NCBI RefSeq assembly: GCF_030295425.1 | Contig: NZ_AP027081.1 | Location: 1,860,001 to 1,924,000, forward strand | DNA from: Mesoterricola sediminis | GTDB taxonomy: Bacteria > Acidobacteriota > Holophagae > Holophagales > Holophagaceae | Reading direction: 5' to 3' | Length of the DNA stretch: 64,000 nt | Part shown: positions 26,725 to 33,288 of the stretch, one piece after another | How the letters are laid out: every line of letters begins with the position of its first letter | Position numbering within the stretch: position 1 is the stretch's first letter | The notes under the pieces: generated by a model | What the model saw: only the letters and a program-made list of their open reading frames with translations | What the model was told of the DNA's origin: nothing | Database searches by the model: none | Translations under genes and position numbers: made by a program

Positions 26725-29700
26725 TTGCGTCTGATCGCCCTTGAAGTCAATGGATTCAAGTCCTTCGCGGACCCCCAGAAGCTCACATTCCCGGTGGGGA
26801 TGACCGCCGTGGTGGGCCCCAACGGCTGCGGGAAGTCCAACATCTCCGATTCCCTGGCCTGGGTCCTGGGGGAACAGCGGGCGACCCTCCTGCGGGGCAC
26901 CGAGATGGCGGACGTCATCTTCGCGGGGACGGGGCAGCGGCGGCCCATGGGGCTGGCCGAGGTCAAGCTCACCCTGGAGATGCCCGACCCGGCCCTGCCC
27001 GGGTCCACCCGGGAGGTGGTCATCTCCCGGCGCCTCTACCGGGACACGGGCAGCGAGTACCGCATCAACGGCCGGGAATGCCGCCTCAAGGACGTCCAGG
27101 ACCTCCTGATGGACACGGGCATGGGCACCCGGGCCTACTCCTTCATCCAGCAGGGCCAGATCGACCTCATCCTCTCCACCAAGCCCAAGGACCGGCGCAG
27201 CCTCCTGGAGGAGGCCGCCGGCATCACCCGCTACAAGGTCCGGCGCACGGACGCTGAACGGCGCCTGGAGGAGACCCGGGCCAACCTCCTGCGGCTGGAC
27301 GACATTCTTTTCGAACTCAACAAGCAGCTGGAATCCCTCAAGCGCCAGGCCGCCAAGGCCCGGCGGGCCCAGGAGCTGGACGCCGCCATCAAGGCCACCC
27401 AGCGCATCCTCCTGGCCGGCAAGGCCACGGAACTGGAGGCCGCCAAGGAGCGCATCATCGAGCACCTGGACCAGCTGGAGCGGAACATCGCCGCCCTCAC
27501 GGCCCAGGGGTCCGAGAAGTCCTCCGAGGTGGAGGCCCTCCGCCTGGCCCTGGACGAGCTCAACCACCAGCAGGAGCGCCGGAGCCGGGCCATCCTGGGC
27601 CTGGACCAGCGCCTGAGCCTGCTGGACCAGGACCGGGGCTTCCAGGGGGAGCGCATCCGGGAGGCGGCCGAGGCCGAGGCGACGCTGCAGGCCCGGCTGG
27701 AGGAGCTGGCTGCTCGTTCGGGTGACTCCCAGGCCGAGACCGAGCGGCTCCAGGCGGCCCTCGCCGAGGCGGAGAAGGCCCTGGAGGCCCGGGACGCCCT
27801 GGTGGCCGGGTCCGAGGAGGCGGTGGTCCTCGCCGGGGGCGCCCTGCGGAAGGTGGAAGCCGAGATCAAGGCCCTGCGGGAACGGCGGCTGGAACTGGAG
27901 CGGGAGGCCCTGGCGGTCCAGAAGCGGCGCCAGGCCCTGCACCAGGAGGTCGCTCAGCGGTCTGGTCGCCTGGATGCCCTCAACCACGAGGAGGCCGTGC
28001 GGGCCCCCCGCCTGGAGGCGCTCGAGGAGGAGGCGCGCCGCCTGGCCCGGGAGGAGGAGGGGGCTGCCGCCCGGCTGGAGGAGATGGCCGAGGCCGTCCA
28101 GGTCCAGGCCCGCATCCGGGAGGAGACCGCCGAGGCCCACCGGGCCGCCGGCGCCGCCCTGCGGGAGGCCGAAGGGGCCCTGGAGACCCAGGAGCGCCGG
28201 ATGAAGCAGCTGGGGGACCTCCTGCGGGAGGCCACCGGCAGCGCGGAGCAGCAGAAGGCCCTGGCGTGGCTCCGGGAGCGGGGGGAGGCCCCCCAGTCCC
28301 TGGTGGACGCCCTGGACGTGGACGACGCCCACCTGGCGGCCCTGGAGCGCCTGCTCGGTGGCTGGATCCAGACCGTCGCCCTGTCCGGCGCGGGGGCGCC
28401 CTGGGAGGCCCCCGGCCAGCTCCTGTACGAACCGGGCGCGGCCCCGGCCTCCGGCGAGACGCCCGCCGGCTGCGAGCCCCTCCGGGACCACCTGCGGTGG
28501 CGCCCCGGCCGGCCCCGGCCCCTGGCCGCGCTCCTGGACCGGGCCTACCTGTGCGCGGACGCGGACCTGGCCGGCCTGGCCCAGGCCCACCCCGACCTCG
28601 CCTTCGTGTCGCCGTCCCTCGTGCGCCTGCCTTTTGGTCCGGCCCAGGCGGGGGTGGCCGCGCCGGCGGCGTCCCCCCTCAAGCTCAAGCACGAGCACGA
28701 GGCGGCCAAGGCGGCCCGGGAGACCCTGCTGGACGAGCTGGAGACCCGGGAAAACGCCGTCCGGGCCGCGGACTACCGCATGCGGGAAGCCGCCGAGCGA
28801 TTCAAGGAGATGGACGAGGATCACCTGGCCGCGCGCCGGTCCCTGGAGGGGGTCCGGGGGCGGAAGGCGTCCAACACCGGACAGCTCAAGGAGATCCGCG
28901 AGGCCCAAACCCGGGCTGACGAGCAGTGGGAGCGCCTGGAGCAGGAGATCGCCGCCTTCAACGCCCAGCTCCGCGAACTGGAGATGCCCGAGGCCCACCC
29001 GGAGGAGGCCGCCGTCGTGGAGGCCATCGCCGCCGCCGAGGGGCGCCGGGCGGAGGCCCAGCGGGAGCTGGACGACCGCCGGGAGCACCTGGTGGAGGCC
29101 TCGCGCATGCGCAGCTCCGCCTGGGCGGAGCGGGACGCGCTCCAGCGCCACCTCCAGCAGCTCCAGCGGGGCGCGTACGACCTGGAGGCGGAGCGCTCGC
29201 GCGTGCAGTACGACCTGCGCCAGAACGCCGAGAAGGCCGAGGCCGCCCAGGCCCGCCTGGCGGAGATGGATGTGGAGACCGCCCAGCTGCTGGACCAGCG
29301 GCAGGAGCTCGTGGAGGCGCATGCCGAGGCCCTGCCGGGCATCGAGCAGGCCCAGGAATTCCTGCGGGTGCAGGAGCGGGTCGCCCGCGAACTGGCCCAG
29401 GCCCTGGAGAACGCCCGCCAGCTCCACCAGGAGAGCCTGCTCCAGGGCGCCCAGGTGCAGGGCAGCATGGAGGCCCTGGCCCGCGAGATCGAGCTGGCCC
29501 TGGGCTTCACCGTGCCCGACTTCCTGGCCTCCATCTCCCCCGAGGAGGCCGAGGCCTGGACCGAGGGCGAGCTCGTCCACCAGACCCGCATGCAGGAGCT
29601 GCAGGGCAAGCGCATGGACCTGGGCGGGGTGAACCCCCTGGCCATCCAGGAACTCCAGGAGGCCGAGGAGCGCATGGCCTTCATGAACCAGCAGCGGGAC

Positions 29701-30231
29701 GACGTGACGGAGGCCATCGGCAACCTGGAGGCCACCATCCGCGAGATCAACGCCACCAGCGAGGAGCGCTTCAAGGAGGCCTTCGAGTTCATCAACGCCC
29801 GGTTCAACGAGGTGTTCCGGGAGGCCTTCGGCGGCGGCGCGGCCACCCTGATCCTCCAGGACCCCAAGGACCTGCTGGAGTGCGGCATCGAGATCACCGC
29901 CCAGCCGCCCGGGAAGAGCGCCAAGGCCCTGACCCTCCTGTCCGGCGGCGAGAAGGCCCTGACGGCCATCTCCCTCCTCTTCGCCATCTTCCACTACAAG
30001 CCCAGCCCCTTCTGCGTCCTGGACGAGGTGGACGCGCCCCTGGACGAGGCCAACGTCGGGCGGTTCGCCGCCATGGTCCAGAAAATGAAGGAAGGGACGC
30101 AGTTCATCGTCATCACCCACCAGAAGCCCACGATGGTCGCCGCCGACACCCTCTACGGGGTGACCATGGAGGAGATGGGGGTGTCGCGCCTGGTGAGCGT
30201 CCAGCTGAGGGAAGCCGCCCAGTTGGTGTGA
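26725..30231 (+). CDS. smc: Chromosome segregation protein SMC
   Basis: Condensin ATPase of 1168 residues that compacts and aligns sister chromosomes. Walker A GPNGCGKSN is at about 32-40 and the C-terminal head has the signature LSGGEKAL and Walker B CVLDEVDAPLDEAN. Long Glu/Arg/Ala-rich coiled coils surround a hinge near residues 490-640. The start is a TTG at 26725; the conserved LIALEVNGFKSFAD begins three residues in. Upstream lies the divergent secretion operon. ScpA/ScpB are not in the window. Confidence 0.95.
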   Translation: MRLIALEVNGFKSFADPQKLTFPVGMTAVVGPNGCGKSNISDSLAWVLGEQRATLLRGTEMADVIFAGTGQRRPMGLAEVKLTLEMPDPALPGSTREVVISRRLYRDTGSEYRINGRECRLKDVQDLLMDTGMGTRAYSFIQQGQIDLILSTKPKDRRSLLEEAAGITRYKVRRTDAERRLEETRANLLRLDDILFELNKQLESLKRQAAKARRAQELDAAIKATQRILLAGKATELEAAKERIIEHLDQLERNIAALTAQGSEKSSEVEALRLALDELNHQQERRSRAILGLDQRLSLLDQDRGFQGERIREAAEAEATLQARLEELAARSGDSQAETERLQAALAEAEKALEARDALVAGSEEAVVLAGGALRKVEAEIKALRERRLELEREALAVQKRRQALHQEVAQRSGRLDALNHEEAVRAPRLEALEEEARRLAREEEGAAARLEEMAEAVQVQARIREETAEAHRAAGAALREAEGALETQERRMKQLGDLLREATGSAEQQKALAWLRERGEAPQSLVDALDVDDAHLAALERLLGGWIQTVALSGAGAPWEAPGQLLYEPGAAPASGETPAGCEPLRDHLRWRPGRPRPLAALLDRAYLCADADLAGLAQAHPDLAFVSPSLVRLPFGPAQAGVAAPAASPLKLKHEHEAAKAARETLLDELETRENAVRAADYRMREAAERFKEMDEDHLAARRSLEGVRGRKASNTGQLKEIREAQTRADEQWERLEQEIAAFNAQLRELEMPEAHPEEAAVVEAIAAAEGRRAEAQRELDDRREHLVEASRMRSSAWAERDALQRHLQQLQRGAYDLEAERSRVQYDLRQNAEKAEAAQARLAEMDVETAQLLDQRQELVEAHAEALPGIEQAQEFLRVQERVARELAQALENARQLHQESLLQGAQVQGSMEALAREIELALGFTVPDFLASISPEEAEAWTEGELVHQTRMQELQGKRMDLGGVNPLAIQELQEAEERMAFMNQQRDDVTEAIGNLEATIREINATSEERFKEAFEFINARFNEVFREAFGGGAATLILQDPKDLLECGIEITAQPPGKSAKALTLLSGGEKALTAISLLFAIFHYKPSPFCVLDEVDAPLDEANVGRFAAMVQKMKEGTQFIVITHQKPTMVAADTLYGVTMEEMGVSRLVSVQLREAAQLV

Positions 30232-30602
30232 TTGGTCACGCCTTTGTCACGCGCCGGTCACGCCCCATTCGGCTTGTCAACGCGAAAGAAACCGGAAACG
30301 TGTGGAAAACTATGTAATGTTTTATTTATTGTAATCACGAATGGCATGTGCTTTAAAGATTGATATCAAAGCAGCTTGTCGTTATATTCTGCCAAGTGGC
30401 ATTTCACGATTTCCTCGGCCGGTCGAAGGGAATCCCGCCTGACCCGGATGGAAATCCACAAGGTTTTCCACAAAGGGGGGGGGAGGCCGGGGGGAAATGG
30501 GGGAAAAGGGGTTGAGAATGCTGAATTTGTTAAGATCCCGCGGGCTGCGGAACCGATTTCGCCTTGACGGGGCGTATGCGGAAAACCGGGTAGAGTGACT
30601 CC
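30232..30602. other. Intergenic region with phased 9-mers and DnaA-box-like sites (oriC or regulatory candidate)
   Basis: This 371-base non-coding gap between smc and radA is much more AT-rich than its surroundings. Three 9-mers, GGTCACGCC (30234-30242), TGTCACGCG (30245-30253) and GGTCACGCC (30256-30264), are spaced 11 bases apart, one helical turn. TGTGGAAAA (30301-30309) and TTTTCCACA (30464-30472) are one base from the DnaA box TTATCCACA, in opposite orientation; AAATCCACA (30452-30460) is two bases away. An AT tract (TTTTATTTATTGTAATC) lies at 30320-30336. These fit a replication origin or DnaA-controlled site, but dnaA or dnaN is not nearby. Confidence 0.4.
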
Positions 30603-31988
30603 ATGGCCAGGACCACGTCCCATTACGAATGCACCGCCTGCGGCGCCCGCCATGCCCAGCCCCTGGGCAAGTGCGGGGCCTGCGGGTCCTTCGGCACCAT
30701 CGAGGAGGTGCGGGGGGCCATGAAGAAGGACCTGGCCCGGGCCCGGAGCGCCTTCTCCGAGAGCAACTACCAGGACCCCGTGCCCCTCCTCTCCGTGGAG
30801 ATCAGCGAGACCCAGCGGACCCCCACGGGCCTGGACGAACTCGACCGGGTGCTGGGCGGCGGGGTGGTTCCGGGCATGGTGGTGCTCCTGGGCGGGGAGC
30901 CCGGCATCGGCAAGTCCACCCTGGTGCTCCAGTGGGCCGCCGCCTGCGCCGGGGATGTGCTCTACGCCAGCGGCGAGGAGAGTGAGCGGCAGATCAAGCT
31001 GAGGGCCCAGCGCCTGGGGGCCGAGAACCCCCGCATCCACCTGTTCGCCGAGACGGACGTGCGCCGCATCCTCGAGGCGGCGGACCGCATGAAGCCGGCC
31101 CTCCTCCTGGTGGATTCCATCCAGACCCTCTTCGACCCCGAGTTCGAGGCCTCCTCCGGGTCCGTCAGCCAGGTCCGGGGGTGCGCCACCCTCCTCGCCC
31201 GGTGGGCCAAGGCCACGGGGACCCCCCTGGTCCTGGTGGGCCACGTCACCAAGGACGGCAGCCTCGCCGGGCCCAAGGTGCTGGAGCACCTGGTGGACAC
31301 CGTCCTGGCCTTCGAGGGGGACCGGCACCACCACCACCGCCTCCTCCGCGCCCTCAAGAACCGCTTCGGCGCCGCCTTCGAACTGGGCGTCTTCGCCATG
31401 ACCGAGCGGGGCCTCGTGCCCGCCGAAGGGAACCCCTTCTTCCTGGAAGCCGAGCCGAGGCCCGGCTGCGCGGCCACGGTCGTTCTCTCCGGCACCCGGC
31501 CGGTCATCGTGGAAATCCAGGCCCTCGTCGCCTCGGCCGGCCTCGGCATTCCGCGCCGGACGGCCCTCGGCATCGACGGCCAGCGGCTGTCCATGCTCTG
31601 CGCCGTGGCGGAACGCCGGGGGGGCATCCAGCTCCATGACCGGGACGTGTACCTGAACGTGGCCGGGGGCCTGGAGGTGGAGGACCCCGCGGCCGACTTG
31701 GCCGTCGTCGCCGCCCTGGCCAGCAGCGCCACGGGACGCCTCCTGGCCGACCGCTGTCTCTTCCTGGGCGAGGTGGGCCTCACCGGCGAGGTGCGCCCCG
31801 TCTCCCAGCTGCCCCTGCGCCTCCAGGAAGGCCGCCGCCTGGGCTTCCACGCGGCCGCGGTGCCCCGCCTGGGCATGGACCCCGGCCTGGACGCTCCGCT
31901 GGAGCTCCACCCCGAACGGGGCCTCGAACGGCTCCGGGCCAAGCCCTGGCTCCGGGGGCGTCCGGAGGGCGCGGACGAGGAGGGGTGA
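30603..31988 (+). CDS. radA: DNA repair protein RadA
   Basis: DNA branch-migration ATPase of 461 residues used in recombination repair. It has the N-terminal zinc finger with Cys10, Cys13, Cys24 and Cys27, Walker A GEPGIGKST at 98-106, and the RadA-specific KNRFG at 252-256. A C-terminal Lon-like domain follows (VAGGLEVEDPAADLAVVAALAS). A natural run of four histidines precedes the KNRFG motif. The gene is followed by 98 bases and then IS copy B. Confidence 0.95.
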   Translation: MARTTSHYECTACGARHAQPLGKCGACGSFGTIEEVRGAMKKDLARARSAFSESNYQDPVPLLSVEISETQRTPTGLDELDRVLGGGVVPGMVVLLGGEPGIGKSTLVLQWAAACAGDVLYASGEESERQIKLRAQRLGAENPRIHLFAETDVRRILEAADRMKPALLLVDSIQTLFDPEFEASSGSVSQVRGCATLLARWAKATGTPLVLVGHVTKDGSLAGPKVLEHLVDTVLAFEGDRHHHHRLLRALKNRFGAAFELGVFAMTERGLVPAEGNPFFLEAEPRPGCAATVVLSGTRPVIVEIQALVASAGLGIPRRTALGIDGQRLSMLCAVAERRGGIQLHDRDVYLNVAGGLEVEDPAADLAVVAALASSATGRLLADRCLFLGEVGLTGEVRPVSQLPLRLQEGRRLGFHAAAVPRLGMDPGLDAPLELHPERGLERLRAKPWLRGRPEGADEEG

Positions 31989-32501: not shown

Positions 32502-32534
32502 CAATGAGGATCCGGAACGCTTGTCACCCTCCGC

Positions 32535-33288
32535 TCATAGCCTCAGCCAGATCACGATGCAGGCCAAAGCCACCTGGGCTGAGAAACTTCGCGCCGTTTT
32601 GTCGAACCTGGTGGCCAGCGCCCTGAACTGTTTGAGCTTGGCGAACCCATGCTCGATGGCATGGCGGGCCTTGTATAGGTGTGAGACCCAGGCCGCCGGA
32701 TTCTTGCGCCGGGGATGAGGTGGGATGACGGCTGTCGCACCATGGCCTCGATCGCCTTCCATACCGGGTTCCCATCGTAGGCCCGATCTCCGAACCCGTA
32801 CTCTGCCTGCCAACCGCACAGCAATCCTTCAGCAGACCGGCTTTCATGGGCTTGCCCCGGAGTGACCAGGAAATCCAAAGGATTACCGTGGGCATCGCAG
32901 ATCAAATGGATCTTGGTCGAGCATCCACCCCGAGATCGTCCGAGCGCCTGGTTCCAGAGCCCCCCCTTTTGCCTGCTGAAGGTTGATGAGCGCGAAGGAT
33001 GGTGCCATCCGGCATGACCCACTCCAGGTCGGCTTCCTTGCGCAGGAACTCCAGGATCCTTTGCCACACGCCGCGCTTGGTCCAGGCCTCAAATCGCGTG
33101 TACACGCTTGTCCAAGGTCCAAATTCCTCCGGCAGGTCCCTCCACGGCGCCCCAGTCCTGTGCCTCCACAGGATCGCCTCCACCATGGGACGGTTGGGGT
33201 GACGGGATCGCCCCATCCCTCCACGCTCTGGCGGAAGGAGCGGTTCAAGCTTTGCCCACATGGCATCGGTCAGGAAACTTCTCGGCAT
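32535..33288 (-). pseudogene. IS5-family transposase, frameshifted (copy B)
   Basis: Same gene as the copy A transposase. The first frame (33288-32902) is intact. In the second frame one C is missing near 32741 compared with 3521-3525, so the reading frame breaks after IEAM and the catalytic Glu segment (AIEHGFAKLKQF) is out of frame. Three substitutions also change residues, including Val to Gly just before the catalytic FGDRAYD. It is not expected to be active by itself, but its ends could be moved by the copy A transposase. Confidence 0.85.

Follow-up and report, generated by a model that had tools for sequence, protein, structure and literature searches.

A conserved non-coding element with predicted DnaA boxes behind smc in Holophagaceae, a candidate remote DnaA-control locus

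The genes smc and radA of Mesoterricola sediminis (Acidobacteriota, Holophagaceae) are separated by a gap of 371 bases, in which a first-pass annotation of the sequence had noted an architecture like that of a replication origin. The locus raises the question of whether this gap holds a chromosome origin, a DnaA-controlled promoter or a DnaA-binding site with some other role. We addressed it in the window, by which we mean the whole stretch of DNA analyzed (64,000 bases; positions 1,860,001–1,924,000 of the single 4,524,604-base contig of the 4.52-Mb genome, labeled G000), and by comparison with related genomes.

Anatomy and conservation of the element

As listed in Table 1, the gap holds a non-coding element composed of a DnaA-type box on the minus strand (box A), AT-rich DNA and two tandem boxes on the plus strand (B1 and B2), the boxes being predicted from their sequences. 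Box A and B2, which had been described as two DnaA-box-like sites in opposite orientation, both read TTTTCCACA and lie 163 bp apart, and the weaker third box mentioned in the annotation is probably B1, AAATCCACA. The AT tract was confirmed as well: the AT content of the best 80 bp of the gap was reached by 0.025% of 59,760 sampled 80-bp windows (median 29% AT). The motif TTWTCCACA occurs 17 times in the 4.52-Mb genome (13 times as TTTTCCACA; 9 times for the reversed control), and two of these occurrences fall in the gap. Further, the gap is the sole place in the 1.2 Mb sampled from M. sediminis where three boxes (TTWTCCRCA or AATCCRCA) lie within 300 bp, and the element is the only three-box cluster of the oriC type in the sampled DNA of this genome and three relatives (G013, G035 and G004; in G013, dnaA lies outside the sample).

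Table 1. Features of the smc-radA region, numbered from the first base of the window
Feature	Position	Strand	Remarks
smc (chromosome condensin)	26725..30231	+	SMC_N match (1.2e-66) and open reading frame; left neighbour here and in the 44 compared flanks
Left phased array, three 11-bp units	30232..30264	-	GTGAC starts at 30261, 30250 and 30239
Conserved block TTGTCAACGCGAAAGAAACCGGAAACGTGTGGAAAAC, terminating in box A	30274..30310	+	contains minus-strand TTGAC
Predicted DnaA box A	30301..30309	-	TTTTCCACA
AT-rich centre	30311..30390	.	71% AT; candidate bend or unwinding region; length fixed, sequence diverged
DnaA-like box B1	30452..30460	+	AAATCCACA
Predicted DnaA box B2	30464..30472	+	TTTTCCACA; 12 bp start to start from B1; directed away from box A
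Right-array place	30473..30532	+	GTRAC array here in 30 of 44 flanks; G-rich stretch in this genome
Extra box-like TTTTCCGCA near radA	30577..30585	-	not conserved in the seven-sequence alignment
radA	30603..31988	+	open reading frame; right neighbour here, not adjoining the element in Geothrix loci

The comparison used 44 smc 3' flanks with box B, all distinct after removal of sequences identical over 300 bases. The distance from box A to the start of the tandem pair was 152 bp in 30 flanks and 150, 151, 153 and 154 bp in 1, 7, 5 and 1 flanks, respectively, and mean pairwise identity was 93% in the boxes and 39% in the spacer. Because the element is conserved in relatives, it is not a product of chance. 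Box A reads TTTTCCACA in 40 flanks, TTATCCACA in 3 and GTTTCCACA in 1, and B2 reads TTTTCCACA in 37, TTTTCCGCA in 5 and TTATCCACA in 2. As far as sequence goes, DnaA is best supported by the flanks that have the classic box TTATCCACA at one end or the other; they lend further weight to the DnaA-box reading of the annotation, the rows concerned (three at box A and two at B2) being related to each other and not representing five events. Six box changes depart from the E. coli consensus (TTTTCCGCA five times and GTTTCCACA once in the 44 rows), and the occurrence of TTTTCCGCA in B2 would count against DnaA unless the local DnaA accepts that sequence.

The recognition segment of DnaA domain IV, read in ten proteins (L006:101-1477 and L206–L214), is MHHST in eight, LHHST in one and MHYST in one, and it has one residue fewer in L209 and the Geothrix rows; the segment of the solved DnaA 8btg is RDHTT, as in E. 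coli DnaA. A segment of the MHHST type may go with relaxed TCC(A/G)CA boxes. Nine weak Bac_DnaA matches in M. sediminis (C1:1930614, 2809265 and seven more, several of them with equal scores) are presumably IstB-type transposon ATPases.

Because 29 of the 44 rows were retrieved through a box-B pattern, the conservation of box B is in part the result of selection; box A, the spacing and the arrays played no part in selecting these rows, and the 15 flanks found through RadA or Smc have the same spacing. Most of the 44 rows come from Geothrix (genus g4, which we infer to be Geothrix because one locus has matching contig coordinates in G036 and G. oryzisoli), and the counts are therefore not independent. 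Twenty-two elements, all from g4, also carry TCAAT-N6-ATTGA (up to one mismatch) at a nearly fixed central place ∼48 bp inward of box A; shuffled sequences gave an average of 0.3.

Across the family, a search for the tandem pair (AATCCRCRAGGTTTTCCRCA, up to two mismatches) gave matches in 63 of 77 genomes (51 once and 12 twice) and in 1 of 77 for the reversed control, with a subset of the matches read and some of the second matches being other loci, seven of them before a pyruvate-kinase-like gene. At these seven loci (L296–L302, from G023, G034, G026, G031, G019, G010 and G003), another conserved group of DnaA-like boxes in tandem (CTATCCACAGGTATTCCACAGGGTTTTCCGCA in L302) lies 0.65 to 1.5 kb into each locus, just upstream of an opposite-strand gene that encodes pyruvate kinase in L302 (PK, 2.5e-91) and looks alike by eye in the other six. 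Eight of the 14 non-matching genomes were read: five (G064, G072, G085, G011 and G022) have variants of the element behind smc, and three (G012, G020 and G016) have no element there. Two further families of the class contributed nine smc flanks, and none of the nine has the element in its first 520 bases. These absences indicate that replication control does not generally depend on it.

The neighbours of the element change. All five flanks of genus g1 that were read have the order smc, element, radA, and in Geothrix the element is followed by a convergent gene (a TPR protein in L182 and an open reading frame in L203, the two loci checked). At two loci without detected smc, the element precedes radA with 150 bp from A to B (L121) or lies ∼0.9 kb before radA with 151 bp from A to B (L097). 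Because the element is kept without radA in Geothrix and without detected smc in L121 and L097, it is neither a radA promoter nor a tail of smc. Elsewhere in the window (32524–33288), between radA and the next gene, overlapping minus-strand open reading frames with transposase-like fragments resemble an insertion sequence remnant by eye.

Outward of the boxes lie direct repeats in 11-bp phase. The three 9-mers at 11-base spacing noted in the annotation are the three units of the left array in M. sediminis, and the right array is not recognizable in this genome. In relatives, right-hand GTRAC motifs on the plus strand mostly follow B2 at offsets of 18, 29, 40 and 51. The distances within pairs are 11, 22 or 33 bp on the right (68 of 68) and, for GTCAC/GTCAT, 11 or 22 bp on the left (10 of 11); such GTRAC pairs were present on the right in 30 of the 44 rows, on the left in 8, on both sides in 1 and on neither side in 7. 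The triple GTRAC-N6-GTRAC-N6-GTRAC was found in two of nine genomes searched, once each in M. sediminis and G030 and both times within the element (reversed control, 0 of 9). In the 1.2 Mb of M. sediminis, just two GTRAC pairs at 11 bp were detected, both in the left array, and none was present in the 0.4-Mb samples of G013, G035 and G004, which include the elements of these genomes. Further, in 39 of 44 flanks a minus-strand TTGAC lies 18–20 bp beyond box A on its outer side, and in 35 of 44 a GTRAC lies 18–21 bp beyond B2 on its outer side; this placement makes the element a rough dyad of two half-sites. Low-affinity DnaA sites are set at 11-bp steps in E. coli oriC, and 11-bp direct repeats of the TGTCA/GTCAC type suit OmpR-family dimers; judging from the repeat pattern, either low-affinity DnaA sites or an OmpR-type regulator such as MtrA may account for the arrays. 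The MtrA boxes in the Mycobacterium tuberculosis oriC are two direct repeats of GTCACAgcg, according to the available excerpts of PMC4285127.

The element and the chromosome origin

The oriC-like architecture claimed in the annotation is real as anatomy and conserved in the family, but the element is probably not the chromosome origin, as indicated by GC skew in M. sediminis, G013 and G035 and by the direction of rRNA genes. In M. sediminis, dnaA lies at the start of the contig. We fitted two-segment models of GC skew to 20-kb samples of four genomes and compared the fits in which the origin is placed at dnaA or at the element; 10-kb pieces were treated as independent, and the differences in log-likelihood are therefore overstated. 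In M. sediminis, the fitted origin was at 25 kb (R2 0.22), and moving it to dnaA or to the element cost 2.0 or 13.3 lnL units, respectively. The fitted origin of G013 was at 400 kb (R2 0.57), with dnaA at 416 kb and costs of 0.0 for dnaA and 13.0 for the element, and that of G035 was at 0 (R2 0.39), with costs of 1.9 and 7.9. In G004, the costs of 3.2 for dnaA and 4.2 for the element do not discriminate between the two. Thus, three of the four genomes have their skew origin at dnaA or close to it, and the element is disfavored in these three.

At least five genes for small-subunit rRNA, from three of six genomes (none came from M. sediminis, G004 and G013, perhaps because the scoring took in just 20 of the initial candidates), were also considered. 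With the terminus taken as opposite to the origin, five of five run with replication if the origin is at dnaA and three of five if it is at the element. Crude gene-strand bias was too noisy to place the origin. On the basis of skew and rRNA orientation, a main oriC at the element is disfavored. The annotation had named in advance, as what would speak against it, a skew minimum and a box cluster elsewhere with none here; the skew minimum does lie elsewhere, but the box cluster does exist in the gap. Measured from dnaA in the reading direction as a fraction of the circle, the element lies at 0.42 in M. sediminis, 0.42 in G001, 0.39 in G004, 0.38 in G008, 0.36 in G035 and 0.73 in G013 (the values for G001 and G008 use rounded lengths), so that it is found at 0.36–0.42 in five of six genomes and 0.27 away on the other side in the sixth.

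That the element is an origin after all, either the main one or a conditional second one as in origins far from dnaA, is a reading that we consider unlikely. Its anatomy of three boxes, AT-rich centre and phased arrays would suit such a role, and so would the surroundings of dnaA: in M. sediminis, the 12 kb around the contig junction at dnaA (6 kb each way) have no site within one mismatch of TTATCCACA, a lack shared by 46 of the 60 12-kb pieces sampled, and three boxes within 300 bp were not found in the dnaA samples of M. sediminis, G035 and G004. The lack of a TTATCCACA-like site in the dnaA region of M. sediminis keeps this rival alive and means that the true origin is not pinned down. However, the skew fits at the element are the worse ones in three genomes, the rRNA genes agree better with dnaA, and the dnaA-dnaN gap carries 3 to 7 TCC(A/G)CA cores in each of ten genomes, although strict boxes number just 0 to 3.

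A proposed role in the control of DnaA

The reading that we prefer, tentatively and with a probability of roughly 40%, is that the element is a dedicated non-coding DnaA-binding locus outside the origin, which, in the manner of datA or DARS, would tune the activity of DnaA and thereby adjust when replication initiates at an origin near dnaA. DnaA would bind box A together with the tandem pair B1-B2, judging from the box sequences. The AT-rich spacer of 152 bp would let the two outward-pointing groups of boxes meet through bending or looping, because its length is fixed and its sequence is free. The outward 11-bp GTRAC arrays would hold either DnaA protomers, bound with low affinity, or another protein, in both cases on a single helix face, and DnaA in the resulting complex would exchange or hydrolyze its nucleotide or would simply be held back. 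A more far-reaching and doubtful reading is that the element acts as a second, conditional DnaA-dependent start site or represents a new class of dyad nucleoprotein switch. In such a switch, two half-sites built from DnaA boxes, both capable of bearing a phased array of 11-bp units, would be separated by a constant 14.5 helical turns, the arrangement being kept across much of the family and mostly in the terminus-proximal half of the chromosome.

A DnaA-dependent promoter, serving radA in this genome or an unannotated small RNA in the AT-rich centre, appears distinctly unlikely. A sigma-70-like site with 10 of 12 matching positions lies at 30360–30388, and two such sites were found in the 1-kb region against 0.2 expected. 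However, radA does not adjoin the element in Geothrix, where both loci checked have a convergent gene next to it; this goes against radA as the target of the DnaA-controlled promoter that the annotation had named as an alternative to an origin, and the poor conservation of the spacer speaks against either form of the proposal. The sole consensus fold is a pairing of box A with box B, which the one-sided TTATCCACA variants break, and Rfam gave no match in the gap. A structured RNA was rejected as a separate candidate: 39 rows scored -5.47 compared with 0.0 for column shuffles, but the signal is just that of the inverted boxes and has no compensatory support.

It is similarly improbable that another protein, such as an OmpR/PhoB-type regulator or a segregation factor, binds the boxes and arrays, and that their likeness to DnaA boxes is secondary. 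The 11-bp repeats of the TGTCA/GTCAC type, together with the MtrA and CtrA sites described in the available excerpts of PMC4285127, agree with this proposal, as do the six box changes away from the E. coli consensus. The parS core GTTTCACGTGAAAC was not found with up to one mismatch in seven genomes (M. sediminis, G001, G004, G008, G013, G025 and G035), so that segregation may depend on different sites, the centromere of the family being perhaps divergent or missing altogether. Against another protein stand the five rows with TTATCCACA at box A or B2 and the absence of the array elsewhere, as a triple in nine genomes or as an 11-bp GTRAC pair in the sampled DNA of four, which is unlike a regulon site. 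Finally, a mobile-element remnant with inverted ends (MITE) is hardly credible: box A and B2 do fall within an inverted repeat whose 15-base arms are 87% complementary and 142 bp apart, but 51 of the 63 matching genomes have a single match, and surroundings are similar and the length is the same across genera.

Comparison with known DnaA-binding loci

Dispersed clusters of DnaA boxes far from oriC hold DnaA in B. subtilis and Streptomyces. The element differs from these clusters in its strict geometry and flanking arrays, which simple titration would not be expected to need. Origins with response-regulator sites, such as the M. tuberculosis oriC with its MtrA boxes and the Caulobacter oriC with its CtrA sites, resemble the element in that DnaA boxes and short direct repeats (of the GTCAC type and TTAA-N7-TTAA, respectively) occur in one region, as described in the available excerpts of PMC4285127. 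Unlike them, the element has its repeats outside the boxes and, in three of four genomes, does not coincide with the skew minimum. In a literature search on DnaA boxes or origins in Acidobacteria, Holophaga or Geothrix, or downstream of smc, which mostly excluded subscription journals, none of the titles or openings of abstracts listed concerned such an element.

The closest parallels are datA and DARS, for which conserved position and spacing are reported in the excerpts available from PMC5010248 and PMC4585315. Two of their characteristics were found here, namely a non-coding locus of predicted DnaA boxes that, in three of four genomes, lies outside the origin defined by skew, and a conserved box spacing (150–154 bp in 44 of 44 flanks). 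Like the element, datA of E. coli is a non-coding DnaA-box locus outside oriC whose box spacing is kept, and its proposed mechanism includes bending of the DNA between boxes (PMC10380432 and PMC4585315, in excerpts). However, datA is located close to oriC and depends on an IHF site, whereas the IHF consensus WATCAANNNNTTR was found between box A and box B in none of the 44 elements, and the element, which we liken to datA by its architecture, has its box groups 152 bp apart and in many cases flanking 11-bp arrays. DARS1 and DARS2 of E. coli are also non-coding, with a core of three DnaA boxes and a conserved relative distance from oriC (PMC5010248 and PMC4245941, in excerpts). Compared by description, DARS has boxes I–III in one core region, whereas in the element one box and a pair of tandem boxes point away from each other on the two sides of AT-rich DNA. 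Further, DARS2 needs IHF and Fis, and Fis is confined to gamma-proteobacterial relatives of E. coli, according to the available excerpts of PMC4245941. Because its parts differ from those of datA and DARS, our claim for the element is limited to a similar mode of action and does not extend to identity with such a locus.

In E. coli, the DNA sites datA and DARS, which set the activity of DnaA, have been studied in depth, and many proteobacteria are reported to have DARS-like sequences (PMC10380432, in excerpts). If the preferred reading of the element as a remote DnaA-control locus is true, a family-wide element of Acidobacteriota that is built from other parts would suggest that remote control of DnaA by DNA sites arose or persists outside the proteobacteria, and the element would offer a compact, testable sequence.
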